A program made the translations under genes and the position numbers. From Bacillota bacterium (GTDB taxonomy: Bacteria > Bacillota > Bacilli > Alicyclobacillales > SLC66), in NCBI GenBank assembly GCA_021793015.1, contig JAJYTO010000012.1:1-32504 (forward strand): a stretch of DNA of 32,504 bases, given 5' to 3'. Below the pieces are notes generated by a model. The model saw nothing but the letters and a program-made list of their open reading frames with translations, had not been told where the DNA came from and searched no databases. Shown here one piece after another: positions 1 to 31,185 of this stretch (position 1 is the first letter of the stretch; each line of letters begins with the position of its first letter).

Positions 1-1
1 T

Positions 2-1213
2 CTCATCTCCAAGGCTATCATCTCAGATGGGATTGCGCCTGTCCAGTGGTATTTGCAAGAAAATTTTCTTGGAACCCTCCAACAAACCAAGCCCGTCAAG
101 GGCTCTCAACTTCATGCGTCAGCACTGGACCTACTCACTTTGTGCGAAATCAACGGCCTTCATGTACCTATTCGGCAATTGTTATTACTCGTCGCGGATA
201 TGATTCTCGGACACCCGGAAGCATCACGGGACAATATAATGAGTTGTAGCGACGTGCCTCAAATCCTGGACAAACAGAACGTTTCTGAGGGGAGTATTTA
301 CCGTAACATCTTTGGCGAAAATCTTTCGGAAAGACGAAGAGAGTCTACCGATATTTTTTCCATGTTAGGTCGATTCGGGATTGGTAACGAGTCAACGAAC
401 AGAATAGACAACGTTTTAATCTTTGGTGCTGATGATCCGGAATTGAATCCGCTTTACAAAAAATTAGTGTTAGAGGATTCATACTATGGAGCAGGCCCGA
501 GTTATCAGGCACAACAGAAGGCCTATTTAGAGGGGACGACTGAAGACGAAGGTAAAGAATTTCTGTCTAAGGTCAGATCGCAGCGTCAGAGGTTATTTTT
601 CGAAATACCAGTAGCTGATGCGACCGAACTCAAGCTATGGCAGTTGACTACGTTCCAGTATGCGGGAGAGTTCCTCAATGATGTCTATAGGGCGGTTGTG
701 GCGAATCAAAAGGTTTCTTCTAATATTAACTCAAGATTAGTCCGCGGCCTTAATAGAATCTTCACGGGTCTCTTAACAAGGACTCAAGAGGAATTGTATT
801 TGGCGACTTCAGGAAGCAACTCCCAATCTAAGGTCAGCAAGTTTTTTGAAGCGGCTATTTCAGTACCCAAAAACCGTGATGAAAGTGTTCTGGTAACTCG
901 TGACAATGCGGGGAAGGTGATTCTGCAGGTAAATCTCTCCCGCAGTCCAAATGTACCACCGGTTCAACTTCAATTAAATCTTATCCGATACGAATTCCTA
1001 TGTAGGGTCGCAGATGGGGCTCTTCCTGGAAGTTTTAGCAAGGAGTGCTACGAGGACATACTAGCGTTCAAAAGTCGGATTTTGACCCAACTACACAATA
1101 GAAGAATCGATGAACGTGATGAAGAAGATTCTATAACCAGTCTAGCATTTCAAATTGTTAAATTGACGACTAATGGGATGCTTGAAAAGAAGACTGTAGA
1201 GGTGAATACATAA
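2..1213 (+). CDS. C-terminal part of a defence-module protein (DptF-like position; 5' end outside window)
   Basis: Frame is open from base 2 (LISKAIISDGIAPVQWYLQENFLGTL...), so the listed TTG at 53 is probably not the true start. Stop TAA at 1211-1213 overlaps the next ATG at 1213. Product inferred from the operon with a FtsK/HerA-type protein. Confidence 0.6.
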   Translation, partial: LISKAIISDGIAPVQWYLQENFLGTLQQTKPVKGSQLHASALDLLTLCEINGLHVPIRQLLLLVADMILGHPEASRDNIMSCSDVPQILDKQNVSEGSIYRNIFGENLSERRRESTDIFSMLGRFGIGNESTNRIDNVLIFGADDPELNPLYKKLVLEDSYYGAGPSYQAQQKAYLEGTTEDEGKEFLSKVRSQRQRLFFEIPVADATELKLWQLTTFQYAGEFLNDVYRAVVANQKVSSNINSRLVRGLNRIFTGLLTRTQEELYLATSGSNSQSKVSKFFEAAISVPKNRDESVLVTRDNAGKVILQVNLSRSPNVPPVQLQLNLIRYEFLCRVADGALPGSFSKECYEDILAFKSRILTQLHNRRIDERDEEDSITSLAFQIVKLTTNGMLEKKTVEVNT

Positions 1214-2769
1214 TGTCGGAACGATTGCCTCGCCCCCAGAAAATTGATTCTGACATGTGGGTTGATGAAGCGATATGGGGACATCGCTTATACGATGAGC
1301 AGACTCCTTGGCTTTGTTTTATGGAATTCTTAAATGTACTAGATGCTGAAATCAGGGCAAACCGTGGACTAGCGGAAGATGTGGGCAACCGTAACTCCTT
1401 ATTATATTCGCCGAAATCTAGACTTTATCTCAGACATATACTCTTCAATAGCCCGCAGATGTCGTTAATTGTTAAACAGCATCCGAACGACAACGATTCG
1501 CAATGGGGTACATGGATTGGGTCAATGATAGGTGTTATGGGTGGGATAGCTAACCCGGATTTGACCTATCTACGTAATCGTTTTCTTGATTTTGACAAGT
1601 TTGTTGAGGTTGTTGAGTTCGTACGTTCTTCGACTATTGAAGGAGAAAACAATAAACGTTGGAGTTCCCAATTCATTTTCCCATACGGACCGGATTGTTT
1701 GTACGAGGATTTAGACGTGAAGGAAGACAACGTTTCATCAGACAGACGTTTTTTTGCTCGCGCGGGAGAGTTACTGTACTTAATGCTTTGTCGGAGCGGT
1801 CGAGGACCGGAGATTTTAGACCAAGTGTCCTCAAAGATTCTAAACTCTGAACATAAACTTAATCGCTTGGTTGCTGTTTTACAGCCGCCAGTTTCAACGC
1901 AAGAGTATCAAGGAACTCGAACTAATACTTACTTACCCTATGCTGTTCTTGAGGAGTACCGAAATCTTGCAGAGGACTGGTTATGCCTTTTTAGATGCAA
2001 CCTTTCGGCGTATGATTACGTCCCGTACTTAGTTGATCTCACTGGGCTGCATATGATCATATACAGTCTACGGCAGGCTCTTGAATTGATTGGGTTTGAT
2101 GAACAACCTTCATTTGTACTAGAAATTGTCGCACCTCGGAAAACCGTGATAAGGGATTTGGCCTCAGAGTCTTTCGCTGAGAACAACATCCTCTCCCGTA
2201 GAGCAGTTGAGGCTTACATAAACAGTATTAAAGAAACCGAGCAATGGACTATTGCAGTTGAGGATAACGATATAACTGACATTAGAGCCCTAATGAAAGA
2301 AACCTTTGCGTGGCCAAAAGATAGTAAAGACCACTCCCTTGATCACTTTCATTCTCCGGAAGAAATGTTCGATACATTTGCTGAAGCCGTCGAAAGGCGA
2401 CATCAGCAACATGTGAGCAAGTTCCATGGGGTTTGGGGAAGAGAGATAGGCCTGTCTTCGAGACGTGGCAGCCGCCGGGTGCGATATGCCCCCCATGATT
2501 CACTCTTAAAGACCCTTGTTCTGGTGGTAGTACAGGAGAGGATGGAATTCAAAGAGTTCTTAGAAGCAATTTACCTAAAGTATGGATTCATTATTGGCCA
2601 CCGTCAGGCAGGTAAGTACATTGAGAATGGCCGCGCTGACCAAGCTGATTTTGAAGAGAATTCCAAACGCCTCGAGCAACGGTTGTCGAGTATGGGACTG
2701 TTGAAGAGATTGTCGGATGCCTGCGCATACGTCGAAAATCCTTTTGCTATTCGGGGGACTAATAAATGA
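1213..2769 (+). CDS. Uncharacterised middle protein of three-gene defence-like operon (DptG-like position), 518 aa
   Basis: Long ORF with ATG overlapping the upstream stop (TAATG); stop overlaps the next start (ATGA). No motif recognised by eye. Confidence 0.65.
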   Translation: MSERLPRPQKIDSDMWVDEAIWGHRLYDEQTPWLCFMEFLNVLDAEIRANRGLAEDVGNRNSLLYSPKSRLYLRHILFNSPQMSLIVKQHPNDNDSQWGTWIGSMIGVMGGIANPDLTYLRNRFLDFDKFVEVVEFVRSSTIEGENNKRWSSQFIFPYGPDCLYEDLDVKEDNVSSDRRFFARAGELLYLMLCRSGRGPEILDQVSSKILNSEHKLNRLVAVLQPPVSTQEYQGTRTNTYLPYAVLEEYRNLAEDWLCLFRCNLSAYDYVPYLVDLTGLHMIIYSLRQALELIGFDEQPSFVLEIVAPRKTVIRDLASESFAENNILSRRAVEAYINSIKETEQWTIAVEDNDITDIRALMKETFAWPKDSKDHSLDHFHSPEEMFDTFAEAVERRHQQHVSKFHGVWGREIGLSSRRGSRRVRYAPHDSLLKTLVLVVVQERMEFKEFLEAIYLKYGFIIGHRQAGKYIENGRADQADFEENSKRLEQRLSSMGLLKRLSDACAYVENPFAIRGTNK

Positions 2770-5700
2770 GCCATGTTGACCTAATTGGACGGGTTGCAAC
2801 TGAATTTTTACGCCGCTCACTTCTACGAGACAACGCGGATCAGAATGACGGGGTATCTAGATATCTCTTAGATCGACTGACGGGCGAACAGGTCGCATGC
2901 ATCTGCAATACACTTTTGGAAGATCCATTCCTGAATTCAATGATTGATTTAAAGGTCCCCCGAAAGTTAGTGGGCGGTTTCGAGTTACCAAGTGAAGTAC
3001 TTACGGATGAGAGAACTACTTATTGGCGTAATGCCCCTTGTGATAAGGACGCAATATTATTAGCCAATACAAGTGATGATCAAGGGCAGTCGCTTCGAGA
3101 TATCACTGCAATTAGTGCAAGCGATTTAAAAGGCACGCCTGATCTTTGGGTAAGCGTGGCGGCTAAAGACTTACCGCTAACTGAAGATCAAAAAAAATAC
3201 TGGGAAAAAGCCTTGAGTGGGCTTAGAGAGGCCAATGATTGCAGTCTTGAACAATTTAGTGCATATGTGGTTAAGGTGCACGACATTATTGCTTTAGAGG
3301 GGATCCCGGTGGTGCGGGCTTTAGGCTGGGCGCTTCCAGCATTACGTATCCCTCGTGACTCTACGTTTTTTGAATCTATTTCTGAGAAGTCTCTAGGGTA
3401 CGTTTCAAAGTGGCGCCAAATGTTCGCTAATGCCTACAGCAAACGAGGATGTTATCTTTCTAAACAAAACCCTAATCGTCAAATAATCAACAATGAAGAT
3501 ATTTGGGAACCCTATCAAAATGTAAAAGACCAAATATCAGCAGATTACCATGAGTTTATTGAAGAGTTCATTCAGTGTAAGGAAACGTGGTCATCGGCGA
3601 CAGATCGTTTGGCAGAGTTGGAATGGGAAAGTGATAACATTGGTCTCATTTTTTCGGGCCTGCGAGTCGTGAAACTTGACTTGTCGTCCAGAACGATTCA
3701 GTTTTATGCTGATGAATTCCCGGATTCACTGTCCCAAGATGACTTGCAATATCTTGAGGCTCTTCGTAAACGTAAAGGCTCACGTGATGAAGATAAGGAC
3801 TTTTATGAAGATCACAGACATGAACTTGAAATGGATCGTGCGCTGAAATCACTCTGGGAGAAATTCGTTTATGGGAAGCCCATAGAGTGTACAGATTTTT
3901 TGGTCGGTCTAGTCACAGCCGTGCAAAGACTATTTGCGCAATGTGACTACACAACAGGACTTAAGGAACTCAGAATTAAGACCAGCAAGGGAAAAGGTCA
4001 AAAACAGTGGCTCGACATCAACGAAGATGTTGGCTTGTATTTTTGTACTGCATATCGTGGAATTGAAAAACTAACCAGCAACCATGTCGTATGGGATACC
4101 AACTGGTTATTTAAGTATGATGAATTAATTGTACAAAGAAGGAACCGAAACGACTACAAAAAGAACACTTCGTCAAGCAAAACTTCCACAAAAATTGCAT
4201 TTCATGTGGAACTTGTGTATACGGATCTTCAAGGTAACCATCACAAGAACATTGTAAGCTTAGACTGGAACTATCGGGTTGCTGTAATCGGCCTGGAACT
4301 CTTTGATGACTTAGAGAGGCTTGCTAGTCACCCATTTTCGTATTCTTCGGTTGGCATAAATCCAATTAGTAAGAAGGGCAAGTTGCAAAATATATCCCTT
4401 AACGACATCACTACCTTGCGGGCTGTTTATGGGCAGGATCGTGGTTCATTAGTCTCCACTTACAAGCGGTCAATTGATTTGAACAAGATCTTTTTGAAAG
4501 AAGTAAAAAATGGACTCGACCACGCGCGTTTGTCACAGCAGCAATACGTGTCTCTTCAAACTAGGTGGAAGACGTTTGCTGAGCTGTATTCTAAGGCTAT
4601 CTCTTCTTGGAAGGATGAGGGGATATCATCTGAATTACTCATAACCCAAGTCGATGCTTACGAGGCCTTGCTTGACGAACTTCGAACGAGTGCATTAAGA
4701 GACACCAATAGAATTCATCTGTGGCATCCTGTTATTCAATTAGGCAACATCCAAATAGAAGGTAACAACCCTGCTTCAATCATCGCGCCTTGGCACCCGC
4801 TTCGCATGGCTGAAAGGGCTGTTAAAATAAGACAGGTTGTTGCATTGATCAACTATGTTCTGAAGTCAGACGATGTGGATTTCGGAGATCCACAGTTATT
4901 TTTTAGTGATCTTTGTTTGGAACTCTCCCAGCCTTACTACCCGGAGGTCACGGTCGGCTTTCAAGGGGATCAGGCATATATAGTTGCTTTGTCTGATACG
5001 GTAAATGACTACAGCCTCATGGAGTCTCCAGTACGGGAATTTGACGATAATGAGACAAACGAAGATCCTCGTGAGGCGACCGAAAAAGTACTGACGGTGG
5101 TCAATAAGTACATCGACTTGCAACCTCATGAGAAGGCGAACTTGAGTATCGCACTGTTTAACTGCGACTCCACCCGTTTACCTCAATCTATTGTCAATGG
5201 TATTTCAGCACTCAATGACCACGAGGAAGAGGTTCGATGTCAGGTCATTTTGAGGCACCGAGACCTCAATAAATTGAGTGACTTGTACATGAAAATGATT
5301 GAAAGTGCAGACCAAGACCCCGACCTGATGGTTGCCAGTGAAATCTCCAAGGATTTTATGGCTCGTTTACGGATCGGGGTCATGGCGGATGCTGCCCCTA
5401 TTTCAAGTAATGCAGATGGTAAACCGGTCGACATTGTGTTCCTTCAGGACGTAATATCCAGAGAATCGAAATTGGTTTGGGTTGAGGTTCAGCCAACCGT
5501 GATCCCACGTTTGTTGGAGCATGTTCCACCACGTTGGGGAAAGCGAAAGTCTGCGGCCAAAGATGAATTGAAATCTACCGCCTTTCTCGTGTCGCCAAGC
5601 CAATCTTCTAGTGGTTGGTCCTATCTGAGGACTGTGCATGCAATTTTAGTGGGGGAAGAGTCAAGGGAAGATGTTTTCTTATTACCTGCAAGACAGATTT

Positions 5701-8057
5701 CTTTTCAAAATGAGAAAACGAAGGGACTGTTTGAAGAAGCACATACTCTTGGCGAGTGGGTTATAAATTCTGACTCACTCCTTGAACCTCGACTGTTAAA
5801 GAACCAAGGGGTTCAAGTTATCAAGTATCAACATAGTCGTACTCAAGGCCCCAGTATGGTTGTATCTTCCAAGTCTCAATTAAACATGCTTAAAGTACTA
5901 GTGAAACGCAGGTTAGCTGCACTCAATCTTGCGCTTACCGATGAAGACTTAAATCAGCTCACAAGCGATTTTATTGATGATGCCAACAGTGTTTCTGGAG
6001 ACATAGTTTTACGTGCTGCCAAGAGAGGTGTTTTTGCCAGTGAATTGCTTGGGGTTGTACTCAGCAAGACTTTGATCACTAGTGACATTGTCGAACGAAG
6101 TCCAATAAGTTGGTTTTTTTTGGACGATTACGCTTCGTGGTTGGGACAGAAAGAAGAGCAAATTGCCGACATTTTGGCGTTGTCTCCATACATTAAAGAG
6201 GGTAAACCCTGTCTCACCGTGATCATCTCTGAGGCTAAGTACGTTGATGCTAAGGGAGCGGCAGAAGCCAAGCGAAATTCTCAGAAACAGTTGAGGGATA
6301 CAGTATCCCGGATGTACAACGCCATTTTTGGATCCCCTGGGAGGCTTGACCGTGATCTGTGGCTGTCGCGCCTCAGTGATCTTGTTAATGATAGTACGGA
6401 GATCCCGGCTGATTCAACATTGACCATCGAGACATGGCGCGAAGGGATACGGAATGGAACTATACCAATTGTGCTGAAAGGATACTCGCACATCTTTGTT
6501 TCTTCGCCGGACGGTCACGTGGACAGCGAGCGATACCAACTCAGCAATGTCGAGGGATGTTTTCAGGAAGTATACTCACGGGATAAAGTGAGGGAACTTG
6601 TTCTTGCCTACGTTAAGGGGCAGACTGTGCTTCCAGTTCGTGAAAAAATCGGAGATGACAAGCCTTGGTTAAAGGTTAATATGCAACTTCCCGCGTCACG
6701 TGTTAATTTGCTCGGAGACAAGTCAGAATTACCAATACAATTGAGTGGAGAGTTAGCTGACACAACCAATGTAGGTCATGCGGAAAGCAATTCTCTCGGT
6801 TTGACCAATGGAGTTGGCAGCAACTCAGGCACACACTTTGAAGAACAGGCTCCCGAAGATGATACTTCTAATGTCGAGGCTGGCTCGATAAACGAACAAT
6901 TGATTGAATGGATTGCAGACAATCAGGATTCACATGAGTCAAATGCCGAAGCCGAGACTTGGGCGACTGAGGTTGTAAACACCTTGAGAACTGCACTGAT
7001 AAGTTACAGTCTGCAGGCCAAGGTTTTGGACAAGAGACTAACTCCCAACGCTGTCATTGTGCGACTCAAAGGTTCGGACCAGCTTAAAATTGACGATATA
7101 GAAAAGAAGCGTTCTCAGTTACTCACTACTCATGCGATTAATATCATTAACATAATGGCTCACCCGGGGGAAATTGTTGTATCTATTGCTAGACCCAAGC
7201 GTGAAACAATCACACTGCCTGAGGTTTGGAGACGTCGTAAACTTCTTGAAGACAGCAAGGGTATGAACATGAGTTTCATTGTCGGCATAAAGGAAATTGA
7301 CGGTGAAATTTTGTATTTGAATCTTGGTGGGCCTTTTTCAGGACTAGAGCAGCATGCACCACATACGTTGATCGCAGGGGCGACAGGCAGTGGGAAGTCC
7401 GTGCTTCTTCAGAATTTGATTCTAGATATATGTGCGACAAATAGCAAAGAATTAGCCAAGATTTATTTAATTGACCCGAAGTTTGGTGTTGATTATCAGC
7501 ATCTTGAAGAACTGCCTCACTTATCTGAGGGGATTATTATCGAACAAGATAAGGCCATCGAGACACTAGAATATCTCGTTCAAGAGATGGACCGAAGATA
7601 CCTTGAGTTTAGGAGTCAGAAAGTGAGTAACTTACGCGATTATAATGCAAAGATGCAGGATAAAGAAAAATTACTGCTCTTGTTCCTTATTCACGATGAG
7701 TTCGCAGAATGGATGTTGGTTGACACCTACAAGCAATCTGTATCTGCCTCAGTTCAACGGTTAGGAGTAAAAGCACGTGCTGCAGGAATACATCTCATTT
7801 TTGCTGCCCAACGCCCGGATGCCAATGTTCTGCCTGTCCAGTTGCGCGACAACCTTGGGAATCGATTAATTCTGAGAGTAGAAAGTGTTGGTACTTCCGA
7901 AATCTCATTAGGTGAGAAAGGGGCGGAACGTCTCTTGGGAAAAGGCCATTTGGTAGCAAGGCTTCAGGGCGAGTCTAGTTTGATATATGCACAGGTTCCA
8001 TTCCTGTCCAGCGAGGGTTTATCAGAGATAGCAGATTTAATTGTGCGAAAGGCATAG
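2766..8057 (+). CDS. Large FtsK/HerA-type ATPase, 1763 aa (DptH-like / phage-defence translocase candidate)
   Basis: C-terminal Walker A GATGSGKSVLLQN, IYLIDPKFGVDYQ, Walker B-like LLLFLIHDEFAEW, and AAGIHLIFAAQRPDANVLPVQLRDNLGNRLILRV, typical of the FtsK/SpoIIIE/HerA fold; very long N-terminal region. Confidence 0.75.
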   Translation: MSHVDLIGRVATEFLRRSLLRDNADQNDGVSRYLLDRLTGEQVACICNTLLEDPFLNSMIDLKVPRKLVGGFELPSEVLTDERTTYWRNAPCDKDAILLANTSDDQGQSLRDITAISASDLKGTPDLWVSVAAKDLPLTEDQKKYWEKALSGLREANDCSLEQFSAYVVKVHDIIALEGIPVVRALGWALPALRIPRDSTFFESISEKSLGYVSKWRQMFANAYSKRGCYLSKQNPNRQIINNEDIWEPYQNVKDQISADYHEFIEEFIQCKETWSSATDRLAELEWESDNIGLIFSGLRVVKLDLSSRTIQFYADEFPDSLSQDDLQYLEALRKRKGSRDEDKDFYEDHRHELEMDRALKSLWEKFVYGKPIECTDFLVGLVTAVQRLFAQCDYTTGLKELRIKTSKGKGQKQWLDINEDVGLYFCTAYRGIEKLTSNHVVWDTNWLFKYDELIVQRRNRNDYKKNTSSSKTSTKIAFHVELVYTDLQGNHHKNIVSLDWNYRVAVIGLELFDDLERLASHPFSYSSVGINPISKKGKLQNISLNDITTLRAVYGQDRGSLVSTYKRSIDLNKIFLKEVKNGLDHARLSQQQYVSLQTRWKTFAELYSKAISSWKDEGISSELLITQVDAYEALLDELRTSALRDTNRIHLWHPVIQLGNIQIEGNNPASIIAPWHPLRMAERAVKIRQVVALINYVLKSDDVDFGDPQLFFSDLCLELSQPYYPEVTVGFQGDQAYIVALSDTVNDYSLMESPVREFDDNETNEDPREATEKVLTVVNKYIDLQPHEKANLSIALFNCDSTRLPQSIVNGISALNDHEEEVRCQVILRHRDLNKLSDLYMKMIESADQDPDLMVASEISKDFMARLRIGVMADAAPISSNADGKPVDIVFLQDVISRESKLVWVEVQPTVIPRLLEHVPPRWGKRKSAAKDELKSTAFLVSPSQSSSGWSYLRTVHAILVGEESREDVFLLPARQISFQNEKTKGLFEEAHTLGEWVINSDSLLEPRLLKNQGVQVIKYQHSRTQGPSMVVSSKSQLNMLKVLVKRRLAALNLALTDEDLNQLTSDFIDDANSVSGDIVLRAAKRGVFASELLGVVLSKTLITSDIVERSPISWFFLDDYASWLGQKEEQIADILALSPYIKEGKPCLTVIISEAKYVDAKGAAEAKRNSQKQLRDTVSRMYNAIFGSPGRLDRDLWLSRLSDLVNDSTEIPADSTLTIETWREGIRNGTIPIVLKGYSHIFVSSPDGHVDSERYQLSNVEGCFQEVYSRDKVRELVLAYVKGQTVLPVREKIGDDKPWLKVNMQLPASRVNLLGDKSELPIQLSGELADTTNVGHAESNSLGLTNGVGSNSGTHFEEQAPEDDTSNVEAGSINEQLIEWIADNQDSHESNAEAETWATEVVNTLRTALISYSLQAKVLDKRLTPNAVIVRLKGSDQLKIDDIEKKRSQLLTTHAINIINIMAHPGEIVVSIARPKRETITLPEVWRRRKLLEDSKGMNMSFIVGIKEIDGEILYLNLGGPFSGLEQHAPHTLIAGATGSGKSVLLQNLILDICATNSKELAKIYLIDPKFGVDYQHLEELPHLSEGIIIEQDKAIETLEYLVQEMDRRYLEFRSQKVSNLRDYNAKMQDKEKLLLLFLIHDEFAEWMLVDTYKQSVSASVQRLGVKARAAGIHLIFAAQRPDANVLPVQLRDNLGNRLILRVESVGTSEISLGEKGAERLLGKGHLVARLQGESSLIYAQVPFLSSEGLSEIADLIVRKA

Positions 8058-8318
8058 AAGAAACTTTCCCTTAAGCGTGTCAGCAAGCTGTTGAATGAAT
8101 ACGGTGATATTTTGTAGACTACGATATCAGTTAGTAGCCCACATCGCGTGTGACGGGAGAAGTCGCACACCGGACGCGGGAGTTGATCCCACACTGTTGT
8201 GCGGCGCGGCATATTACGATCAACAAGGGAACGGCGGCGTATCGGCGGAAAACTGTTCGGCGCATTTGTGTAACCAGTGCGCCGTTTTCATCGTCTATAT
8301 TGAAAATGTGGGAGGGAC

Positions 8319-9969: not shown

Positions 9970-11295
9970 ATGGAAATCAATAAGATGGATTTATATGGAT
10001 TAGCGTTGACGGGATTGATGTTGGCACAAGTGATTTCAACTCAACCAACAATGGCAGCAACCATGGGTTACCATGAGCAATTAAAACATATTGCGGGTGC
10101 GGACAAACACCTGGAAATCGAAACCATGAGCATGACCACGGCCAGAAACGGCTGGGCCATGGGCCACCTATCTGTGTCTGCTGGCTACGAGAACATGGTG
10201 TTAAGCACGGCAGATGGGGGCTTGATCTGGCAGAACGCGACCCCAAGTCACATGGTCAGCGGGCAAAGGGCTTTATCTGCCGGTTTCGCGGGGACACAGT
10301 CGGCAGTGATCGCCGTAAACGGATCATCCGGCATCGTTGCATACGTCACGACCGACGGAGGACGAAAGTGGGTGGTGTCAAAGCCGCTCGCAACCGCCTA
10401 TCCAAACGGCAATTTATACGTGCAGTTCGTGAACAGGCGGCGCGGTTTCATAGAGGTGTCCACTGGCGGCAATGGCACCTTGTATGGAGCGCTGCTGACA
10501 ACAGCAAATGGGGGTCAAACGTGGCGTCAAGTGTCCGGCAGTTCGATTGATACGGGGCGGAGTGGATGGCTGCCTTTTGCAGAGGGTTTTTCGTTTGAGA
10601 ACGCAAAGGACGGCTGGATGGGCGGCGTACAGAGGGATTTTTCGGGAGGAAACTTCGGCGGTTCTGGATTCCTGTGGATGTACAGAACAATCGATGGTGG
10701 AAGGGATTGGAGGCACGTAATACTTCCGTTTCCTGATGGATTTGCCGGTGCCAGCACGGAGGTCTCGCAGCCGCAGTGGTTCGGACGGACGGGATACCTC
10801 GTGATCCGGTACACTACTGCCAAGCAAAATCGCACAGGAATATTCTTGTACGAGACTCGAGACGGTGGACAGAACTGGGTGCCTGTGCGCACTTCACCGC
10901 CGGGTTCAGTGGATTTTGTCAACACCCGGGTGGGGTATGCCCTATCGTCTGGTCGATTGTTTCGCACAGGGAACGGAGGCGTTACTTGGGAACAGGTGGC
11001 GGCGCATGCTGCATGGAGAGAGTACACCAGCCTTCAGTTCGTCACACCTTCTGACGGTTGGATTGAGTGGTTCGATCAATACGGCCCACATTGGGAGCGA
11101 ACCACAGATGGGGGACGTGTGTGGAATGCCTACACGGCCGTGGCAGGAAAATCGTTGATCGCGGGTGGTCGTGAACAGGCGACGCACATTTATTTGGATG
11201 GCGCGGTCATTTCCAAACCAAGACACACTGTAGCGAAAGATCCCGCTTCTGGAGTGACCGCGCCTGCTTTGCGGACTTTATCACTGCTCCCCTGA
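9970..11295 (+). CDS. Secreted Asp-box/BNR-repeat beta-propeller (Ycf48/sialidase-like fold)
   Basis: Repeated Asp-box motifs: TADGGLIW, TTDGGRKW, TANGGQTW, TIDGGRDW, TRDGGQNW, TGNGGVTW, TTDGGRVW. N-terminal signal-like segment. ATG 9970 chosen over the track start 9649, which reads through the minisatellite. Confidence 0.75.
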   Translation: MEINKMDLYGLALTGLMLAQVISTQPTMAATMGYHEQLKHIAGADKHLEIETMSMTTARNGWAMGHLSVSAGYENMVLSTADGGLIWQNATPSHMVSGQRALSAGFAGTQSAVIAVNGSSGIVAYVTTDGGRKWVVSKPLATAYPNGNLYVQFVNRRRGFIEVSTGGNGTLYGALLTTANGGQTWRQVSGSSIDTGRSGWLPFAEGFSFENAKDGWMGGVQRDFSGGNFGGSGFLWMYRTIDGGRDWRHVILPFPDGFAGASTEVSQPQWFGRTGYLVIRYTTAKQNRTGIFLYETRDGGQNWVPVRTSPPGSVDFVNTRVGYALSSGRLFRTGNGGVTWEQVAAHAAWREYTSLQFVTPSDGWIEWFDQYGPHWERTTDGGRVWNAYTAVAGKSLIAGGREQATHIYLDGAVISKPRHTVAKDPASGVTAPALRTLSLLP

Positions 11296-13457: not shown

Positions 13458-13615
13458 GTTCTTGCCGAACAAACGGGGCTTGGACTAAACCGCTAGCGCG
13501 GTGGAAAACCCCCTCCCTCCGTCACCCTAGCTGACACAATGTTGTCTGGTTTCTCTTCGTAACTCTCGCTATCCTATTCGTGCATCCCCATGCAACAATA
13601 GGAGGAGAGTGCCTT

Positions 13616-14498
13616 ATGAGATCCCATCAACACCTGATTCAGCGGATGACGGAGGATCTTCGACTGCGAGGGTTGTCACCGAACACCGTCGACGCCTACA
13701 TCCGTTCGGCCCGGATCTTTCTCGAGTTTTGCGGATGTCCAACAGATCAACTGGATGTCTCAGATGTCCGCCGGTTCCTTTTGTTCCTCATCCACGAGAA
13801 AAAGCGGTCTCCAGCGACGGTCAAGCATCTACAACGCGGCGGTCCGGTTTCTTTTTGCAGTCACCTTGAATCGTACCTTCAATCCCTTGCAAATTCCACG
13901 CCAGAAAACGCCAAAGACCCTCCCGCAAGTGTTGAACCGCCACGAGATCGCGTCTCTTCTGGAGCATTGTCACAACCGAAAGCACAAGGCGTTGTTTGCT
14001 TTGATCTACGGTTCCGGGCTGCGGGTGAGCGAAGCGGCCGCCATCAAAACGGAGCACATCGACTCCCGTACCATGCGGGTGTTCGTCCAAGGAGGCAAGG
14101 GAGCCAAGGATCGGTACACCGTGCTTTCCCACACCGCTGTGCAACTTTTGCGGGAGTACTGGAAAGCGTATCGTCCGGCCCATCCGGAAAGCTGGCTGTT
14201 CCTGGGCACGTATTCGCCGACTCACATCACCTCAGCGGCCATATCCCGTGCCTTTTGCGATGCGCTGAAGCGAGCGCAAATCTCCAAAGAGGTTTCCATC
14301 CACTCTTTGCGCCATTCGTTTGCGACCCATTTGTTGGAGGATGGAGTGTCCCTGCTGCAAATCAAAGAACTGCTCGGACATGCCAGCATCCGCTCCACGA
14401 CAGTGTATTTGCACTTGGCGAATGTCGCCTCTGGGATACTTAGTCCGCTCGATCGTGGGCCGTTCAAGGATGAAGGAAGAACCAGCGCCGATGCCTGA
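13616..14498 (+). pseudogene. Tyrosine recombinase/integrase split by a +1 frameshift near 13825
   Basis: N-terminal SAM-like part MRSHQHLIQRMTEDLRLRGLSPNTVDAY...KKRSPATVK is in frame 2. The catalytic part SIYNAAVRFLF...YGSGLRVSEAAAIK...HSLRHSFATHLLEDG...LGHASIRSTTVYLH is in frame 3. R..HxxR..H..Y residues are present. Confidence 0.8.
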
Positions 14499-15618
14499 AC
14501 TCCAAGACATCTTCGCCCAGTACGCCGACGCCTACGCACAGAGGCACCCGCTCTCCCTTGAACAGGGGAAAGTGGTCCGGGCCATCCAGAACTGCCGCAC
14601 CGCCGCCTTAGGGGGACATGTGGATGAGTGTGACCATTGCGGGTTCACGCATATCTCCTACAATTCCTGCCGCAACCGCCACTGTCCGAAGTGCCAAACC
14701 CTGACCAAGGAACGCTGGATCCAAGCCCAGAAGGCGAACTTGCTGGAGGTCGGGTACTTTCATGTTGTGTTCACCCTGCCGGAGGAACTGAATCCCGTCG
14801 CCTACCAGAATCCAGAGGTGGTATACAACATCTTGTTCAAGGCCGCCTCAGAAACCTTAACGGAGTTGGCGGCGGACCACACCTATTTGGGGGCGCAGAT
14901 CGGCTTTACCGCCGTCCTGCATACGTGGGGACAGAACCTCATGCTCCACCCGCACCTGCATTGCATTGTCCCAGGCGGTGGGTTGACTCCCGATGGACGA
15001 TGGGTGAACTCCCGCAAGAAGTTCTTTCTCCCCGTCAAGGTGCTCTCGCGTAAATTCCGGGGCAAGTTCCTGTTCTATCTCAAACAGGCAACGCTTGAGT
15101 TCCATGGTTCACTGGAGCCCCTGCGGAACGAGGCCCGCTTTCGGGAATGGATGTCCTCCCTCTACCGGAAAGAATGGGTGGTCTATTGCAAGCCGCCGTT
15201 TAAAACGCCGGCTCATGTGGTGGAGTATCTCGGACGCTACACGCATCGGGTGGCGATTTCCAATCAGCGGATTCTTCGTGTCCAAGACGAGTTGGTCACC
15301 TTCCGGTGGCGGGACTACCGGGGTGGAAATCGGCAAAAAGAGATGACTCTGACGGCCAACGAGTTCATTCGTAGGTTCTTAACGCATGTGCTGCCCAAGG
15401 GATTCACGAGAATCCGCCACTACGGGATACTCAGTCCCCGGAGCCGAAGGACGAAGTTGTCTCTTTGCCGAAAACTAACGAAGACTAAGGTTCACCCGGT
15501 TCCCAAACTGTCTGCGGTTGAACTGTTTCTCCAGTTAATGGGCAAGGATTTCACGGTATGTCCCAGTTGCAAGATCGGCCATCTGATGCGGGCGGCTCCT
15601 GTCTTCAAAAGTGCATAG
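14491..15618 (+). CDS. IS91 family transposase (zinc-binding N-terminus, HUH, Y2)
   Basis: CDHCGFTHISYNSCRNRHCPKC zinc motif, HPHLHCIVPGGG HUH motif, YLGRYTHRVAISNQRI YxxxY motif. ATG overlaps the integrase stop. Confidence 0.92.
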   Translation: MPELQDIFAQYADAYAQRHPLSLEQGKVVRAIQNCRTAALGGHVDECDHCGFTHISYNSCRNRHCPKCQTLTKERWIQAQKANLLEVGYFHVVFTLPEELNPVAYQNPEVVYNILFKAASETLTELAADHTYLGAQIGFTAVLHTWGQNLMLHPHLHCIVPGGGLTPDGRWVNSRKKFFLPVKVLSRKFRGKFLFYLKQATLEFHGSLEPLRNEARFREWMSSLYRKEWVVYCKPPFKTPAHVVEYLGRYTHRVAISNQRILRVQDELVTFRWRDYRGGNRQKEMTLTANEFIRRFLTHVLPKGFTRIRHYGILSPRSRRTKLSLCRKLTKTKVHPVPKLSAVELFLQLMGKDFTVCPSCKIGHLMRAAPVFKSA

Positions 15619-16043
15619 CATTGGCGAAGCGGCCCGTGGAGTGGGGAGGGGGAATCTATGCGCATGACGGGGTACAAGCGAGATCTGAGGCCACACCATC
15701 CCAGATTCCCCCCATGCGAGCCCTCATAAAACGACCCTTGGCGAGGGGTGGCCAAAATTGACTTCCCATAGTCGCTGACGACCGCGGTTCAGTCCAAGCA
15801 AAATATCCAAAGTCGGTGCTCAACCTACAGAAGCGCGCCATTCTTTTCGACCGACTTCGGATATTTCACTATTCATTATGTCCAATAAAGCGTTTGATCC
15901 ATTGCGACGATCCAGTGGTGTTTCAGGAATTCCTGCGGCGAATTGTTTTTTGGGATCGTTATTACTGGTGGCTAAAATTGCTCTCGATTGGGTATATAAT
16001 AGACATGGATAATGTCGTTGATAGCACCTGTGGAGGGAAATCA

Positions 16044-17177
16044 ATGAGCGTAGAATCGATCTTTCCGTTTGGTCGGCCAGTGACATCGGGTGATATCGTG
16101 GATCGTCGAGAATTTCTGGCAGAAATGCAGCAGCGCCTTTCGGATGGCCACAGTCTCATGCTGCCAGGTCCCAGGCGAATCGGGAAATCCAGTGTCGCTC
16201 ATGAAGTACTGCGGCGAATGCGCGACACAGGGGCATACACGGCCAACGTCGATCTCTTTTATGTGACCGGCATCGATGAGTTTGCTGCAAAGCTGATGAA
16301 ATCTGTGTTGGAAAACCGCACCGGTGTACTGGGGCAGGCGATTCGGGCGATGCGTGGATTGCGAACCCTGATCGGTCAAGCGGAGGTCCGTGCAAAAATC
16401 CATGATTTAGAATTAGGTTTATCTTTGGGACGCGAAGAGACAGACCTGTTAGAGCAACTTGAGATGGCCATTTCCTTGGCGGAAAATTTAGCGCAACGTG
16501 ACAATCGCCGGATGGTCATTCTGTTGGACGAGTTTCAGGAGATGGAACGCCTTGGCGGACAGGCGCTCCTGCAGCGGTTGCGGGCGCTCTTGCAGCGGCA
16601 AACACATACGGTGTATCTGTTTTTGGGCAGCCAGACCACGCTGATGCAAACCATCTTTGCGGATCGGGGGCAGGCGTTTTATCGGTTTGCCACCATGATG
16701 GAATTACCGTCGATTCCGGCAGAGGCTTGGCACGACTATTTGTCAAAACGGTTTGTGGATTTCCGGATGCACTTCACAGATCCCGCCTTTCGGCTCATGA
16801 TGGACCGCACGGGGGGTCACCCGTATTGTCTGATGGCCGTCGCATACAACGCGCATTTGCATGCGAACCTGCATCACTTGACCACCATTACGGCCGATGT
16901 GGTGGATTATGCGTATGAGCAGGCCATGAGGCATCTGCAATCCATCTACGATGTTCAGTGGCAGGAACTGCATCGATTTCGACATGCAGATACCGTATTT
17001 GCCGCATTGGTAGAGGGAGCGGCGCCGTATTCCCTGCCGATCTCCGGATCAGTTGTGACGAAGGCCATCCAGAACCTGATAAGGCTTTCGATCATCGTCA
17101 AAGGAGAGGGGCGCGGCGAGTATCATCTTGTCGAGCCCATGTTTGGTGATTGGCTCTTGCACCAACAGGGCAGATGA
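16044..17177 (+). CDS. AAA/STAND-like ATP-binding protein (archaeal ATPase family type)
   Basis: FGRPVTSGDIVDRREFLAEMQQRL...LPGPRRIGKSSVAHEVL (Walker A), MVILLDEFQEME (Walker B), TGGHPYCLMAVAYN. GGAGGG Shine-Dalgarno-like site before ATG 16044. Confidence 0.8.
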   Translation: MSVESIFPFGRPVTSGDIVDRREFLAEMQQRLSDGHSLMLPGPRRIGKSSVAHEVLRRMRDTGAYTANVDLFYVTGIDEFAAKLMKSVLENRTGVLGQAIRAMRGLRTLIGQAEVRAKIHDLELGLSLGREETDLLEQLEMAISLAENLAQRDNRRMVILLDEFQEMERLGGQALLQRLRALLQRQTHTVYLFLGSQTTLMQTIFADRGQAFYRFATMMELPSIPAEAWHDYLSKRFVDFRMHFTDPAFRLMMDRTGGHPYCLMAVAYNAHLHANLHHLTTITADVVDYAYEQAMRHLQSIYDVQWQELHRFRHADTVFAALVEGAAPYSLPISGSVVTKAIQNLIRLSIIVKGEGRGEYHLVEPMFGDWLLHQQGR

Positions 17178-17410
17178 CCAAAGCACATGAACTTGCGATT
17201 CCGGACCATTCCCTTGCCGCAAGTTTCCGAGAGCAATGCGCCGCAATAATTCGTAAGCGAAATGGCTTTCAAAATTATGCGGGACGGCGGCTACACCCTG
17301 CTTGTGATATACTCGGGATACAGGATCCGGAACGGCTCAACACCACGCTCGGACGTTAATGGGCGAAGTCTTCATAGAACGATAAGGCGCAGATATTTTG
17401 GGAGGTTGCA

Positions 17411-18088
17411 ATGCCCAAACTCATTTCGCGTGTTGATATCCTCCCAAGACCGCAACGACAGCTTTGGGGAGAGCTGGGGCAAACGCCGAAGCGATTTGGA
17501 TTCGTGATGTACGGCGGAACGGCGCTGGCCCTGCGTCTTGGACATCGACAGTCCGTAGACTTCGATTTCTTTGCCACTGCTCCCTTTGTATCGTCGTCTC
17601 TGCTTTCCGAGATTCCCTATCTCGATGGGGCGACGGTGCAGCGATCTTCCGAAAACACTCTGACCTGCCTGGTGGATAGAGGCGGTCCTGTACAGGTGTC
17701 TTTCTTTGGGGGTCTGAGCTTAAATCGGGTAGAGGATCCCGACGTCGCGGAGAACGGGATCAAGATTGCCTCACTTCTGGACTTGGCGGCCACCAAGGTC
17801 AAGGTCATTTTGGATCGTGCCAGCGCAAAGGATTATCAAGACATCGATGCGTTGCTTCAGACGGGGATGAATCTGACGGAAGCTTTGGGAGCTGCAGTGG
17901 CTGTTTACGGTCCGCAATTCAATCCCTTGTTGAGCCTCAAAGCTTTGACCTATTTTGAGGACGGCGATGTGAAGCGGCTTGCTCCTGACGCGCAAGTGCG
18001 GTTGCGTACGGCTGCAGCGGCAGACATTACTCGCATCCCCAAGTTTCGGCCGCTTCGTGAATTGGATCCGGAACGGCTAAGATCATGA
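17411..18088 (+). CDS. AbiEii/AbiGii-type nucleotidyltransferase (putative toxin)
   Basis: FVMYGGTALALRLGHRQSVDFDFF (hGGTAL...DhDhF signature), KIASLLDLAATKVKVILDRASAKDYQDIDALL. Confidence 0.85.
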   Translation: MPKLISRVDILPRPQRQLWGELGQTPKRFGFVMYGGTALALRLGHRQSVDFDFFATAPFVSSSLLSEIPYLDGATVQRSSENTLTCLVDRGGPVQVSFFGGLSLNRVEDPDVAENGIKIASLLDLAATKVKVILDRASAKDYQDIDALLQTGMNLTEALGAAVAVYGPQFNPLLSLKALTYFEDGDVKRLAPDAQVRLRTAAAADITRIPKFRPLRELDPERLRS

Positions 18089-20379: not shown

Positions 20380-21273
20380 TCAGCGCAGCCAGGCGGACAG
20401 ATCGCGGTTCAGCAGACTCTGCAGTTGTGAGATGTCGGCGGCGAAAAACTCCTGAAGGGAGGCGCGGGTTGCGGGATGCATCTGCGTCTTTTCGAGGAGC
20501 ATGGATTTCGCGCGGTTGCCCAGCCGCTCCCGAAGGTCCGCCGGCACAAACGGCTTGACCATTTCCTTGAGCGCATTGGGTTTCGTGACGAAGTTGAACA
20601 ATGCCCTGGATTTTGGCATTCCCGATTCGTTGTAGCGAATGGAACTGTCAATGGCAAAACGCGGGTTGACGCCGAGAAATGCAAACAGTTCGGACATGAC
20701 GGCTGCGTTGTCGCGGCTGAAATCATCATAGAGGATGACCTTCACCTGCTCCCGTCCAAATACGTCCAGATAGCGGCGCACCTGTTCTGTGTACAGGCCC
20801 AGTTCCCGGTACAGCCACAGCGGCTCATAATCCAACCGCTTGCGGTTGGCCTCTTCCCGCAAGCCATCCTCGAAAGACAACGTTTCCCGCTCATCGCGCA
20901 GCAGGTGCATGTAGGCGGAAAAGGCCCGGTCCACAGGGTTTCGCAAAACGATGACGATCTTCATGTCCGGATTCTCGCTGTGGATGCGTTCCGCTGTGCC
21001 GGGATAATAGAGATAGAACGCGGACGATTCGCCGATTGCGATTTCATTGCCCACAGCGTCAAACAGGCTTTCATAGCGTTCTCTTGAGCCGATCGTCTCG
21101 GTGTTCATGCCCTCGTCTCCCCGCCCGTTGAATCTGGCCGGAAAGCTTGGCATCGCGAAGTAATGCGCCTCCTTCTTGACAGGCAAGTAGACTTCCGGAT
21201 GCTGGGCAAGATAGCGATCGATGGAACTGGTGCCCGATTTGGCGGCGCCTACGATAAGAAAGTTGGGTAACAT
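20380..21273 (-). CDS. PAPS-dependent sulfotransferase family protein
   Basis: 5'-PSB-like GAAKSGTSSIDRYLAQHPEVYLP and 3'-PB-like VIVLRNPVDRAFSAYMH; GGGAGGAG Shine-Dalgarno site before ATG at 21273. Confidence 0.9.
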   Translation of the reverse strand: MLPNFLIVGAAKSGTSSIDRYLAQHPEVYLPVKKEAHYFAMPSFPARFNGRGDEGMNTETIGSRERYESLFDAVGNEIAIGESSAFYLYYPGTAERIHSENPDMKIVIVLRNPVDRAFSAYMHLLRDERETLSFEDGLREEANRKRLDYEPLWLYRELGLYTEQVRRYLDVFGREQVKVILYDDFSRDNAAVMSELFAFLGVNPRFAIDSSIRYNESGMPKSRALFNFVTKPNALKEMVKPFVPADLRERLGNRAKSMLLEKTQMHPATRASLQEFFAADISQLQSLLNRDLSAWLR

Positions 21274-21382
21274 GATTCTCCTCCCACAAAAGATTGGACC
21301 ATGGGTCGTCTCCGAGTGCACGTTGGCAAACGCGTGTTCCGTGGTGTGCATGGCTACCGCTGTCCCCACACGCCGACCGTCG

Positions 21383-22396
21383 TCAGGCGGATGCTGCATC
21401 AAGCAGGTTTCTGGCCGCCGCGAGCAATGCGTCCATGTCCGCTTCTGTTGCGATCACCGCGCCAGCTCGAAATTCGTGCCCGCCGCCCCCGAATCGGCGC
21501 GCCAGTTCCAGCACGGGAACTCCACGCCCGCGCAGGCGCACGCGAATTTCAGTCGGACTCTGCTGCACGAAGAGCACGAAGAGCCGGCCGGGGAGCCGTT
21601 CCAGTTCCTCCGTCATCTGCGCGGCCTCATCGGGAGGGATTCCGGCCTCCCGCATCGCCGCCAGATCCAAATAGGACGCCATCAGACCGCCATCGCTGCG
21701 CGCGTTTCTTCTGAGTGTTTCACCGAGTCTGAAATACCCGAACGAACGGGTGTCCAAACGCTCTGCAATCGCGATTTTGTCAATCTGCGCCTTGGCTTCC
21801 AGAAAAGCCGCGGTCGTATACGTGCGTGTTGCCGTATCCCGCTTAAACCATTGAGTGTCCGAGACGATGCCAGTGTACAGATATTGGCATATTTCTGCAG
21901 TGAAAAGCGGGGTGGCGGTGATGCGTTCCAGTTCCTGCAGCAGAAGCGTCAGCATCTCCGCCGTGGAACTTGCCTGCGCGTCGATCAGGTTCAGAGTTCC
22001 GTAGCCCAGGTTGGACTCATGATGATCGATCACAATGTCAATGGCGCACAGGTCGCGTAACAGTTCAGGCGGTGTCGCCGTCTCGTTGCCGTATTTTGCG
22101 ATCAGGCCAGCGATCCGCTTACGGGTGTCGCGATCGAGTGCGAGGCGACCGACATTGCCGGTGTCAAGCGCCACCAGCAGAGCGTTTGCGAAGGGGTGCT
22201 CCGGGATCTGCGCGGCGGGCAGAAGCCAGCGCAGATGCTCCGGCAAATCGTGCGCAACGCTGACGGTTTTGCCGATTTGCCGCAGCGCCAGCGCCAGCGC
22301 GAATACGGACGCGGAATCGGCGTCGCCGCGCACGTGCGTGATCAAGTGGATGGGATTGGAAGCCGCGAGATTTGAAGCAATCTCGTTGTACGTCAC
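21383..22396 (-). CDS. nrnA: DHH-DHHA1 phosphoesterase, NrnA-like oligoribonuclease / PAP phosphatase
   Basis: HVRGDADSAS motif I, LVALDTGN, IDIVIDHHESN (DHH), RFGGGGHEFRAGAVI (DHHA1 GGGH). Confidence 0.85.
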   Translation of the reverse strand: MTYNEIASNLAASNPIHLITHVRGDADSASVFALALALRQIGKTVSVAHDLPEHLRWLLPAAQIPEHPFANALLVALDTGNVGRLALDRDTRKRIAGLIAKYGNETATPPELLRDLCAIDIVIDHHESNLGYGTLNLIDAQASSTAEMLTLLLQELERITATPLFTAEICQYLYTGIVSDTQWFKRDTATRTYTTAAFLEAKAQIDKIAIAERLDTRSFGYFRLGETLRRNARSDGGLMASYLDLAAMREAGIPPDEAAQMTEELERLPGRLFVLFVQQSPTEIRVRLRGRGVPVLELARRFGGGGHEFRAGAVIATEADMDALLAAARNLLDAASA

Positions 22397-22432
22397 CTTG
22401 CAGCACCTCAGTCAGTGAATGGCGTTCTTGAA

Positions 22433-23587
22433 TCATACTTGCGCCGCAAATTTTTCATAAAACTCCATCAGGACGGCCACCACTTCCGGACGGCTGAATT
22501 CAGGCGGGGGCGCGATGCCCTGGACGAGCATGGAGCGCACCTTTGTGCCGGAAAGAATGACTCTGGATTCCTCGCCGTGCGGACACGTCTTCGTCGTTGA
22601 CATCCCTGCGCAAGATGTGCAGTAGAATGCGTGTTCGAAAAACAGCGGGGTGATTCCGACTTCTTCCTTCGTGAACGATTGAAAGATGTGCTGGGCGTCA
22701 TAGCTGCCATAGTAATTTCCGACGCCCGCGTGATCCCGGCCGACAATAAAATGTGTACAGCCAAAATTCTTGCGCACCAGCGCGTGCAGGATCGCTTCGC
22801 GCGGCCCGGCGTAGCGCATGGCGGCGGTGTAGGCGCCAAGCAGCACCCGACCCTGTGGATAGTAGTGGTCGATCACTGCGTGATAGGCCCGCATGCGAAG
22901 ATCGGCAGGCACATCGTCGTCTTTTGTGGGGCCGACCAATGGATGGATGTAGAGGCCGTCGACTGTTTCCAGAGCGCATTTTTGAATATACTCATGCGCC
23001 CGATGGATCGGGTTTCGCGTCTGAAATCCGACGACCGTTTTCCATCCGCGCTGCTCAAAATAGCGTCTCGCCTCTTCCGGGGTGTGCGCATACTCGGCAA
23101 ATGGGTCAGCATCTGGCGTGGGTATGACCGTGATGGGGCCGCCCAGGTAGGTGTCGCCCCTGTGCAGCGTGACGTTGACGCCCGGATGTCCGGTTTCGTC
23201 TGTTCCATAAATTCGGCTCACGTCTGCACGGAGATTTGGACGGTAGACGCTGTTCGCGGTAAGAATCGCGTGAGCGACGCCGCGTTGATCGCAAAGGGCC
23301 AACTGCTCACCGGGCGCAATGCGCGAAGCGATATCCTGCGTCACAGGAAGCACCACGGGAAGAGACCACAACAGTCCGCTTGCCAGACGCATGTTTGCGA
23401 CCACTTCTCGGTAGTCTGATTCCTCCATAAAGCCGGTCAGCGGCGAAAATGCGCCCATGCCGATCTGACGGATGTCAGACAGCGCGATCTCGTCCACCTG
23501 GATTTTTCGCAGAGTCGACGCCTCATCGACTGCACGGTTTGACAGACGGTTCACCAGCGTGCCGCCGTGGGGTGCGATTAGAGTCAA
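22433..23587 (-). CDS. sat: Sulfate adenylyltransferase (ATP sulfurylase)
   Basis: APHGGTLVNRL N-terminus, FQTRNPIHRAHEYIQK, VGRDHAGVGNYYG, SGTKVRSMLVQG. Start TTG 23587 (or GTG 23596) chosen from Sat-like N-terminus and GAGGAA. Confidence 0.93.
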   Translation of the reverse strand: MTLIAPHGGTLVNRLSNRAVDEASTLRKIQVDEIALSDIRQIGMGAFSPLTGFMEESDYREVVANMRLASGLLWSLPVVLPVTQDIASRIAPGEQLALCDQRGVAHAILTANSVYRPNLRADVSRIYGTDETGHPGVNVTLHRGDTYLGGPITVIPTPDADPFAEYAHTPEEARRYFEQRGWKTVVGFQTRNPIHRAHEYIQKCALETVDGLYIHPLVGPTKDDDVPADLRMRAYHAVIDHYYPQGRVLLGAYTAAMRYAGPREAILHALVRKNFGCTHFIVGRDHAGVGNYYGSYDAQHIFQSFTKEEVGITPLFFEHAFYCTSCAGMSTTKTCPHGEESRVILSGTKVRSMLVQGIAPPPEFSRPEVVAVLMEFYEKFAAQV

Positions 23588-23607
23588 TACGTTCACTTCC
23601 TCGTGGA

Positions 23608-24255
23608 TCAAGATGAATGGCTCGCGGTGGATATGCTGCCCATCTCCGCGCCGTTTTGCATAGACACCGTACCGCTCACATAGTGCGCAATCCAACGAGT
23701 GGCGTCTTCCGCGGACTGCCTGTCCGTATGAATGGTTATTTCTGCGTCCAGCGGCGGCTCGTACGGTGAACTGATGCCCGTAAAGTCGCTGATGGCGCCA
23801 GCCTGCGCTTTCTTATACAGGCCCTTGGGATCGCGTTCAATACAGACTTCAAGCGGGCACTCCACAAAAACCTCAATGAATTCACCGGGAGCGAACAGCG
23901 CGCGCGCCGTGTTGCGATCCGCGCGAAGCGGCGAGATCATCGCGACGATAACCACAATGCCCGCATCCACGAACAATTTGGCAGTGTGCGCGACACGCCG
24001 AATATTCTCCTGACGGTCGGCCAGCGAGAAACCCAGGTCCTGGTTCAGGCCGTGCCTGACGTTATCGCCGTCGAGCAGGTATGTACGGATGCCTGCGTGG
24101 TGAAGTTGCAGTTCCAGCGAGTTGGCGATTGTTGACTTGCCCGCTCCCGACAGACCGGTGAACCAGACGGCGCAACTGGTGTGCCCGTGCTGCTGTGCAC
24201 GCGCGGCTCTCGTGACTTTATTGTCGTTCCAGGTCAAATTGCGCAAGTTATCCAC
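23608..24255 (-). CDS. cysC: Adenylyl-sulfate kinase (APS kinase)
   Basis: [72 protein letters not shown] start 24255 with GGAGG 6 nt upstream. Confidence 0.93.
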
Positions 24256-24302
24256 ATGTAGCCTCCTACCCTGTATATCCGGGCTCGTCCGTTCTGTCGC
24301 AT

Positions 24303-24320
24303 GATCGGCGTTCCGATCAA
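24303..24320. promoter_or_regulatory. Inverted repeat TGATCGG-CGTT-CCGATCA upstream of cysC (candidate operator/leader hairpin)
   Basis: Perfect 7-bp arms about 48 nt upstream of the cysC start. Confidence 0.35.
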
Positions 24321-24526
24321 TTCGGATATGCATGTCGCACGTGCGATTGGCAGCAGTCAATCATGCGAATCCAATACAATGGTGTGAATCAAAATTGTCA
24401 TACCGAATCCAGTATAACCGTAAAATCTCGAAATTACATTAGCGTTTTTTTGGAAGACTGCGCAGGGGCGCCGCAAAACCCGGGCATGGCAGTCTATCCC
24501 GAAAATAATGATGGTCCCTGCCGGTC

Positions 24527-29958: not shown

Positions 29959-31185
29959 TCAGAGGAATGGCCATAGGGGCGACAGGATAAGTTCTCCAAG
30001 TTTTTGCACAAGCGGCCGCCTCACCCATTCATCCAGAAGCAGTTCGCGACAGTGCTGCAGATCGTCGGCGAACACTTCTTCCATCTGCTGCGCAACGGCC
30101 GGATGGATAAATTCGATATTGAGCTCGTAGTTGCCAACCAGGCTGAGGCGGTCAAGGTTGGCCGTGCCGACGGTCGTCCAGGCGCCGTCGATCGTTGCCG
30201 TTTTGGCGTGGATCATGGCCGCCTGGTATAGGAAAATGCGAATTCCCTGCCGCAGGCAATCGGTGAAATAGGTGCGCGCCAGCCAGTCAGCCAGCAGGTG
30301 GTTCGATTGTTCCGGCACCATGAGACGCACATCCACGCCGCGGCGGGCAGCGCCCACCAGGGAACTCAGGACATGGCGGTCCGGGATAAAATAGGGCGTG
30401 GTGAGGAGTATCCGCTCGATCGCGACATCAATCGCTTCAATGTACATGGAACGGATGGGGAACATGAGCCGTTTTGGATCATTGGCGTACAGTCTCATGT
30501 AGGGAAGGAGAGACGCCGATGATTTGACCAGGCGCCGTTTCTCGTCCACATGTTCATTCCAGAAGTCGACAAACGAAGAATAGAGATTTTTTGCCGCTTC
30601 TCCTTCGATCCGAACATGCGTGTCTCGCCACTTTGCCCCATACAGGTCGCCGATGTTATAGCCGCCGCTGTATCCGATTTTTCTGTCGATCACCAACAGT
30701 TTACGGTGATCGCGGGCCAGGTTTCGGATGTCAAAGACATCCCAGAGCCGCGTCCACGCCTTGTAGCGCAGCAGATGGACGCTCGACGGGAATTTTTTAA
30801 ATTCCCGCGCCACCACCAGATTGGCGAAATCATCGAAGACGGCGTATACCTTGACGCCATCCTGCGCCTTGCGGAGGATGGCGTCCTTAATCTTGGAGCC
30901 GATCGCGTCACCTTTCCATATGAATGATTCAATGCAAATGGACTCATTCGCCGCGCGAATATCGGCGAGCATTGACTCGTACAGGCTGACGCCATAGGTA
31001 AAGATTTGCACGCGGTTGTGTCGGATGGAAAGTTCTGAAAGTGATTGCTGACCCAGAGTAATGCTGGTTCGACGTCGGCGAAAGCGCGTGCTGACGGCAG
31101 AACTTGCGACAACGACAATCTGCAGGGTCAATATGATGGCGACGGCGATAAAAAAACCGTCTTCGAGGCGCGCCGTGAGTGACAC
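29959..31185 (-). CDS. Phospholipase D / cardiolipin synthase-like protein
   Basis: Two HKD motifs: DHRKLLVIDRKIGYSGGYNIGD and IHAKTATIDGAWTTVGTANLD; N-terminal TM segment. Confidence 0.9.
   Translation of the reverse strand: MSLTARLEDGFFIAVAIILTLQIVVVASSAVSTRFRRRRTSITLGQQSLSELSIRHNRVQIFTYGVSLYESMLADIRAANESICIESFIWKGDAIGSKIKDAILRKAQDGVKVYAVFDDFANLVVAREFKKFPSSVHLLRYKAWTRLWDVFDIRNLARDHRKLLVIDRKIGYSGGYNIGDLYGAKWRDTHVRIEGEAAKNLYSSFVDFWNEHVDEKRRLVKSSASLLPYMRLYANDPKRLMFPIRSMYIEAIDVAIERILLTTPYFIPDRHVLSSLVGAARRGVDVRLMVPEQSNHLLADWLARTYFTDCLRQGIRIFLYQAAMIHAKTATIDGAWTTVGTANLDRLSLVGNYELNIEFIHPAVAQQMEEVFADDLQHCRELLLDEWVRRPLVQKLGELILSPLWPFL

Follow-up and report, generated by a model that had tools for sequence, protein, structure and literature searches.

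Does a tightly overlapping three-gene operon that ends in a very large motor protein represent a new anti-phage module or a known one, and is it complete? The question was raised by the beginning of a 32,504-bp stretch of DNA (hereafter the window), which is the entire contig C20 of a draft Bacillota genome (321 contigs, 3.82 Mb, 91.9% complete). The first-pass annotation of the window had described three ORFs, the first of them truncated, with a TAATG overlap joining ORF1 to ORF2 and an ATGA overlap joining ORF2 to ORF3. We found the ORFs and both overlaps as described, all on the plus strand, with ORF1 reading from base 2 to base 1213 and open at its 5' end (further coordinates in Table 1). 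What appeared to be a new HerA defence system nevertheless turned out to be a known system, present as a damaged copy.

Table 1. Features of the ssp block in the window
Feature	Position	Strand	Basis
Mobile-element end, multicopy, joined into sspF	1..127		Matches starts of contigs C319, C128 and C279
sspF remnant, the last ~360 residues of ~616, Walker A half absent	128..1213	+	PADLOC SspF; DNA homology to L005
sspG, intact, 518 aa	1213..2769	+	PADLOC SspG; AF2 model, pLDDT 90.7
sspH, intact, 1763 aa	2766..8057	+	PADLOC SspH, 2240.8 bits
SspH predicted PD-(D/E)XK nuclease domain, ~residues 1115-1285	6108..6620	+	Invariant residues; AF2 model; weak fold matches
SspH FtsK/SpoIIIE motor domain, residues 1528-1684	7347..7817	+	PF01580; PDB FtsK chains; invariance
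Right-hand boundary of the probable acquired ssp island	8058..8241		Synteny with G002 from 8242; GC shift

The three genes match SspF, SspG and SspH

We searched the three ORFs against the PADLOC profiles, and the adjacent genes matched SspF, SspG and SspH in F-G-H order. ORF2 matched SspG (1.2e-191) over profile positions 3-498 of 498 and ORF3 matched SspH with 2,240.8 bits over positions 1-1765 of 1766, while the match of ORF1 to SspF (4.4e-135) was confined to positions 238-599 of 600, which is the C-terminal 60%. ORF2 and the N-terminus of ORF3, for which no family could be named earlier, do match named families. Judged by these profiles, the locus is sspF-sspG-sspH. These genes form the restriction module of SspABCD-SspFGH, an already known system based on phosphorothioate. 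The first-pass annotation had itself proposed that clear DptFGH matches would make the locus known rather than novel; by that measure it is known, but as Ssp and not as Dpt.

The same annotation had guessed at an anti-phage module, either a divergent DndFGH/DptFGH or a separate HerA-based defence system. The guess of a restriction module with an F-G-H layout held; neither of the two identities did. DndFGH/DptFGH is likewise a three-gene restriction module whose F subunit is a P-loop protein, and its layout is similar, with a large last protein that carries a C-terminal motor. However, the full-length matches were to Ssp families, and no Dnd/Dpt family occurred among the PADLOC or NCBIfam matches of the three ORFs at E<=1. 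The partner of DndFGH is DndABCDE rather than SspBCD, and the neighbours seen in relatives of our locus were sspBCD and not dndBCDE. Any sequence relation between the two modules is undetectable, and the original description of SspFGH states that the two share no sequence homology (PMC8092258). We rejected both DptFGH and a new HerA system on the profile matches and regard this reading as extremely improbable. The methylation-based MADS system was also rejected. Its MAD7 and MAD8 proteins are related to parts of SspG and SspH, but the MAD7 match covered the C-terminal ~90 residues of SspG (7e-11; 41.8 bits, where the cut-off is 410) and the mad8 match was restricted to the SspH motor (6e-23). 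These matches are partial and far below the family cut-off, and no full-length MAD7 or MAD8 was found at the curated cut-off.

SspFGH was described in 2021 in Vibrio anguillarum FF-93 as the restriction partner of SspBCD (mBio, PMC8092258), and its defining traits include a phosphorothioate at CCA, toxicity without the mark and phage protection. The Vibrio module damages unmarked DNA and suppresses phage DNA replication, is toxic when SspBCD is absent, and loses protection when any single gene of the three, sspF included, is deleted (PMC8092258). Our locus resembles FF-93 in its F-G-H order, in the FtsK-like end of SspH and in its family-level profile matches. It differs in that sspF is interrupted and lacks the Walker A half, and in that sspBCD, which adjoins sspFGH in most relatives, was not found.

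A mobile element is joined into sspF

ORF1 had been taken as truncated, and it is indeed open at its 5' end, but the edge of the window is not the sole cause; the earlier reading of the operon had overlooked a mobile element that interrupts sspF. Bases 1-127 of the window recur unchanged at the beginning of three other contigs of the genome, C319 (over 126 bases), C128 (83) and C279 (37), and all four contigs diverge immediately 3' of the terminus ...CATGCGTCAGCACTG. Contigs that begin at one shared end are typical of assemblies that break at repeats. Copies of the element that are 77-94% identical stop at the same base in four related genomes (G001, G002, G036 and G051), and the copy in G036 has a DruA/DUF4338-type ORF just inside its end (PF14236, 2.7e-10). 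Base 128 is the exact start of DNA homology to sspF of the closest relative, L005. The shared terminus and the sspF homology from base 128 together point to a multicopy mobile element joined to the interior of sspF; with the junction at 127/128, ORF1 as annotated opens with ~42 residues that derive from the element. The 127-base overlap appears to equal the word length of the assembler.

The loss amounts to ~256 of the ~616 residues of SspF. It includes the Walker A motif GTAGDGK, each position of which is conserved in 97-100% of relatives; the motif lies in the missing 5' part and is absent from the assembly. We looked for the other end or interior of the element and for the 5' half of sspF in search of a target duplication, and neither is in the assembly. 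The operon looks complete, yet its first gene is broken, a point of relevance to surveys in which one subunit is enough for a system to be scored as active.

The other ssp parts were not detected in the genome

Searches of the 92%-complete draft genome did not find the 5' half of sspF. SspC was not found in runs that picked it up in distant genomes despite identities of 23-30%, and a run that recognised SspB in five control genomes did not find it here. SspD was not found either, with a weaker probe that missed one control (L006). Two PAPS-reductase homologues of the genome (on C202 and C15) were considered as SspD and rejected, as the SspD search gives no match. Since sspBCD would be expected on the very side at which the contig ends and the draft is incomplete, the absence of sspBCD is likely though unproven; we infer that these genes are truly absent from the genome rather than unassembled. 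The element removes the P-loop half of sspF and no sspBCD is detectable, and for these reasons the module is probably non-functional. Our preferred reading, which we consider very likely, is that the locus is the restriction half of a horizontally acquired SspABCD-SspFGH island and that it is most likely non-functional here.

A complete and perhaps active system might instead be present, if a contig that escaped assembly or binning carries sspABCD together with the 5' half of sspF beyond the element, or if part of the population has an intact allele. The draft stands at 91.9% completeness, low-GC islands are often lost from draft assemblies, and contig C20 ends inside a repeat. On the other hand, four separate ssp parts (the 5' half of F, B, C and D) are all missing, and sspF would still be split even if the others lay across the element. 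We therefore regard a complete system as rather unlikely.

The ssp block as a probable acquired island

The third-position GC content (GC3) of the ssp genes was 0.43, compared with 0.67-0.69 in two core genes, and synteny with the sister species G002 begins at position 8242 of the window. Given this shift and the synteny break, the likeliest reading of the block is an acquired island with its right-hand limit somewhere in 8058-8241. Neither of the same-genus sister species (G001 and G002) has sspH, their matches being to the general FtsK motor only.

Relative to L005, dS was about 2 and dN 0.12-0.15 in all three genes. These values indicate strong purifying selection on the three genes across the divergence from L005 and are silent on the time after the insertion. 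In principle the residual sspG-sspH, with or without the C-terminal piece of SspF, could retain a reduced defence function or have taken on another role: both reading frames are open and conserved (dN/dS of about 0.07 relative to L005), and the kinship of the MADS proteins to parts of SspG and SspH points the same way. However, deletion of sspF abolished protection in the Vibrio module, the conservation spans the whole L005 divergence and so says nothing about the period after the insertion, and no outward promoter-like site was found when we looked for one in the element end. We judge continued function of the remnant to be quite improbable, and a non-functional restriction half remains the preferred reading.

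Predicted nuclease and motor domains of SspH

The motor of ORF3, previously called FtsK/HerA-type, is of the FtsK/SpoIIIE type and occupies residues 1528-1684 of 1763, while HerA matches were weak. It matched PF01580 in Pfam (1.3e-33) and FtsK chains in the PDB (up to 6.9e-29), with Walker A residue K1544 and Walker B residues D1644 and E1645; SspH thus has an FtsK/SpoIIIE-like C-terminus. Just ahead of the motor, D1135, E1156-x-K1158 and Q1175 form a PD-(D/E)XK signature that was invariant in 71 sequences. An AlphaFold2 model of residues 1010-1300 (pLDDT 84, pTM 0.85) had the expected PD-(D/E)XK order of a helix, a strand, a strand with E-x-K and a helix with Q. A Foldseek comparison of this model with the PDB gave the nucleases HamA, McrBC and FokI among the best matches, all of them weak (E 0.011-0.12); searching the PDB with the sequence of the predicted nuclease region returned no match.

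From the signature and the model we predict a PD-(D/E)XK domain in SspH, and its invariant residues offer a concrete, testable candidate for the DNA-damaging activity of SspFGH. The features named in the description of the Vibrio module were limited to a Walker A motif in SspF and an FtsK-like end in SspH, and the DNA damage observed there was not assigned to a domain (PMC8092258). We found no mention of a nuclease domain in SspH in the open-access papers that we searched, though such a mention may exist elsewhere. DndH has been reported to carry an REase ahead of its HerA/FtsK domain (PMC10853773), which makes the same working plan plausible for SspH despite the lack of sequence homology. The additions made here to the known system, namely the mobile-element junction in sspF and the nuclease assignment in SspH, are modest.

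The AF2 model of SspG (pLDDT 90.7) was mainly helical, and a fold search with it gave no PDB match. The end of the protein may be winged-helix-like, according to our own reading of the predicted secondary structure. An intact SspFGH would damage DNA that lacks the sulfur mark made by SspBCD and block phage replication. In such a machine SspH would supply FtsK-type DNA pumping together with the predicted PD-(D/E)XK cutting, SspF may act as a nucleotide-driven switch that gates SspH, and SspG may bind or bridge DNA.

Relatives of the locus and a second broken module

We fetched 80 SspH loci and searched their ORFs with profiles, which returned the F-G-H order in the relatives. Genes for SspB, SspC or SspD were present at 45 of the 49 loci that had enough flank on both sides, and two of the remaining four (L021 and L074) had SspC elsewhere in the genome. 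The closest relative, L005, is the Bacillota MAG WH4.bin38, which belongs to the same taxonomic family, with identities of 77% for SspH, 77% for SspG and 81% for the SspF remnant. Its ssp island has the same F-G-H order as ours and consists of sspDCB on the opposite strand, followed by sspA, a full-length sspF, sspG, sspH, and then a DUF262/GmrSD_N protein and a Ser/Thr kinase; sspDCB, sspA, the full-length sspF and the two downstream genes set it apart from ours.

The last two genes (L005:15908-18098) recur beside sspH in distant bacteria (L052, L055 and L056) and are a possible accessory effector pair of Ssp islands. In the sspDCB region of L005 (L005:132-5195), SspC matches a BrxC/PglY model (7.5e-125), while parts of BrxP are matched by SspB and SspD, which links Ssp to BREX-type proteins.

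Of the 69 loci with 4 kb or more of upstream sequence, 63 had sspF, sspG and sspH of normal length. L033 was left out of the judgement on broken genes, the region before its sspH being partly masked. Among the genomes without an SspC match, a second broken module was found in Bacillus massilionigeriensis (L070, on a 4.16-Mb contig), in which sspF and sspG are full-length and sspH (L070:12383-13935) is interrupted close to residue 775 by an element that carries an rve-type transposase and differs from the one in the window. SspB, SspC and SspD were not found in the B. massilionigeriensis genome. The broken sspF in the window and the broken sspH in this species are consistent with the toxicity that SspFGH is known to have without the mark, though two cases are too few to establish a pattern. 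Tentatively, the nuclease-motor machine may be unable to stay intact once sspBCD is lost, genomes then surviving when a mobile element disrupts one or other of the three genes and leaves a fossil of autoimmunity behind; we see this as a possible, if doubtful, generalisation. Four loci (L010, L016, L028 and L068) look broken or incomplete though they carry modification genes.

Other features of the window

A 46-bp dispersed repeat at 11248-11293 has more than 25 copies in the genome and further copies in the two sister species, and no inverted repeat of at least 12 bases was found around it. At 13580-15618 lie an integrase-type ORF and, after it, an IS91-like Y2 transposase. The pair at 15816-18088, an ATPase_2 protein and an AbiEii-like nucleotidyltransferase (PF08843, 2.9e-15), is possibly a toxin-antitoxin or defence remnant. 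On the minus strand, a PLD-like protein at 29959-31185 has a weak match to DrmC (4.5e-13), with no DISARM context seen, and a sulfate-activation cluster at 20380-24360 comprises a sulfotransferase, a DHH protein, ATP sulfurylase and APS kinase.
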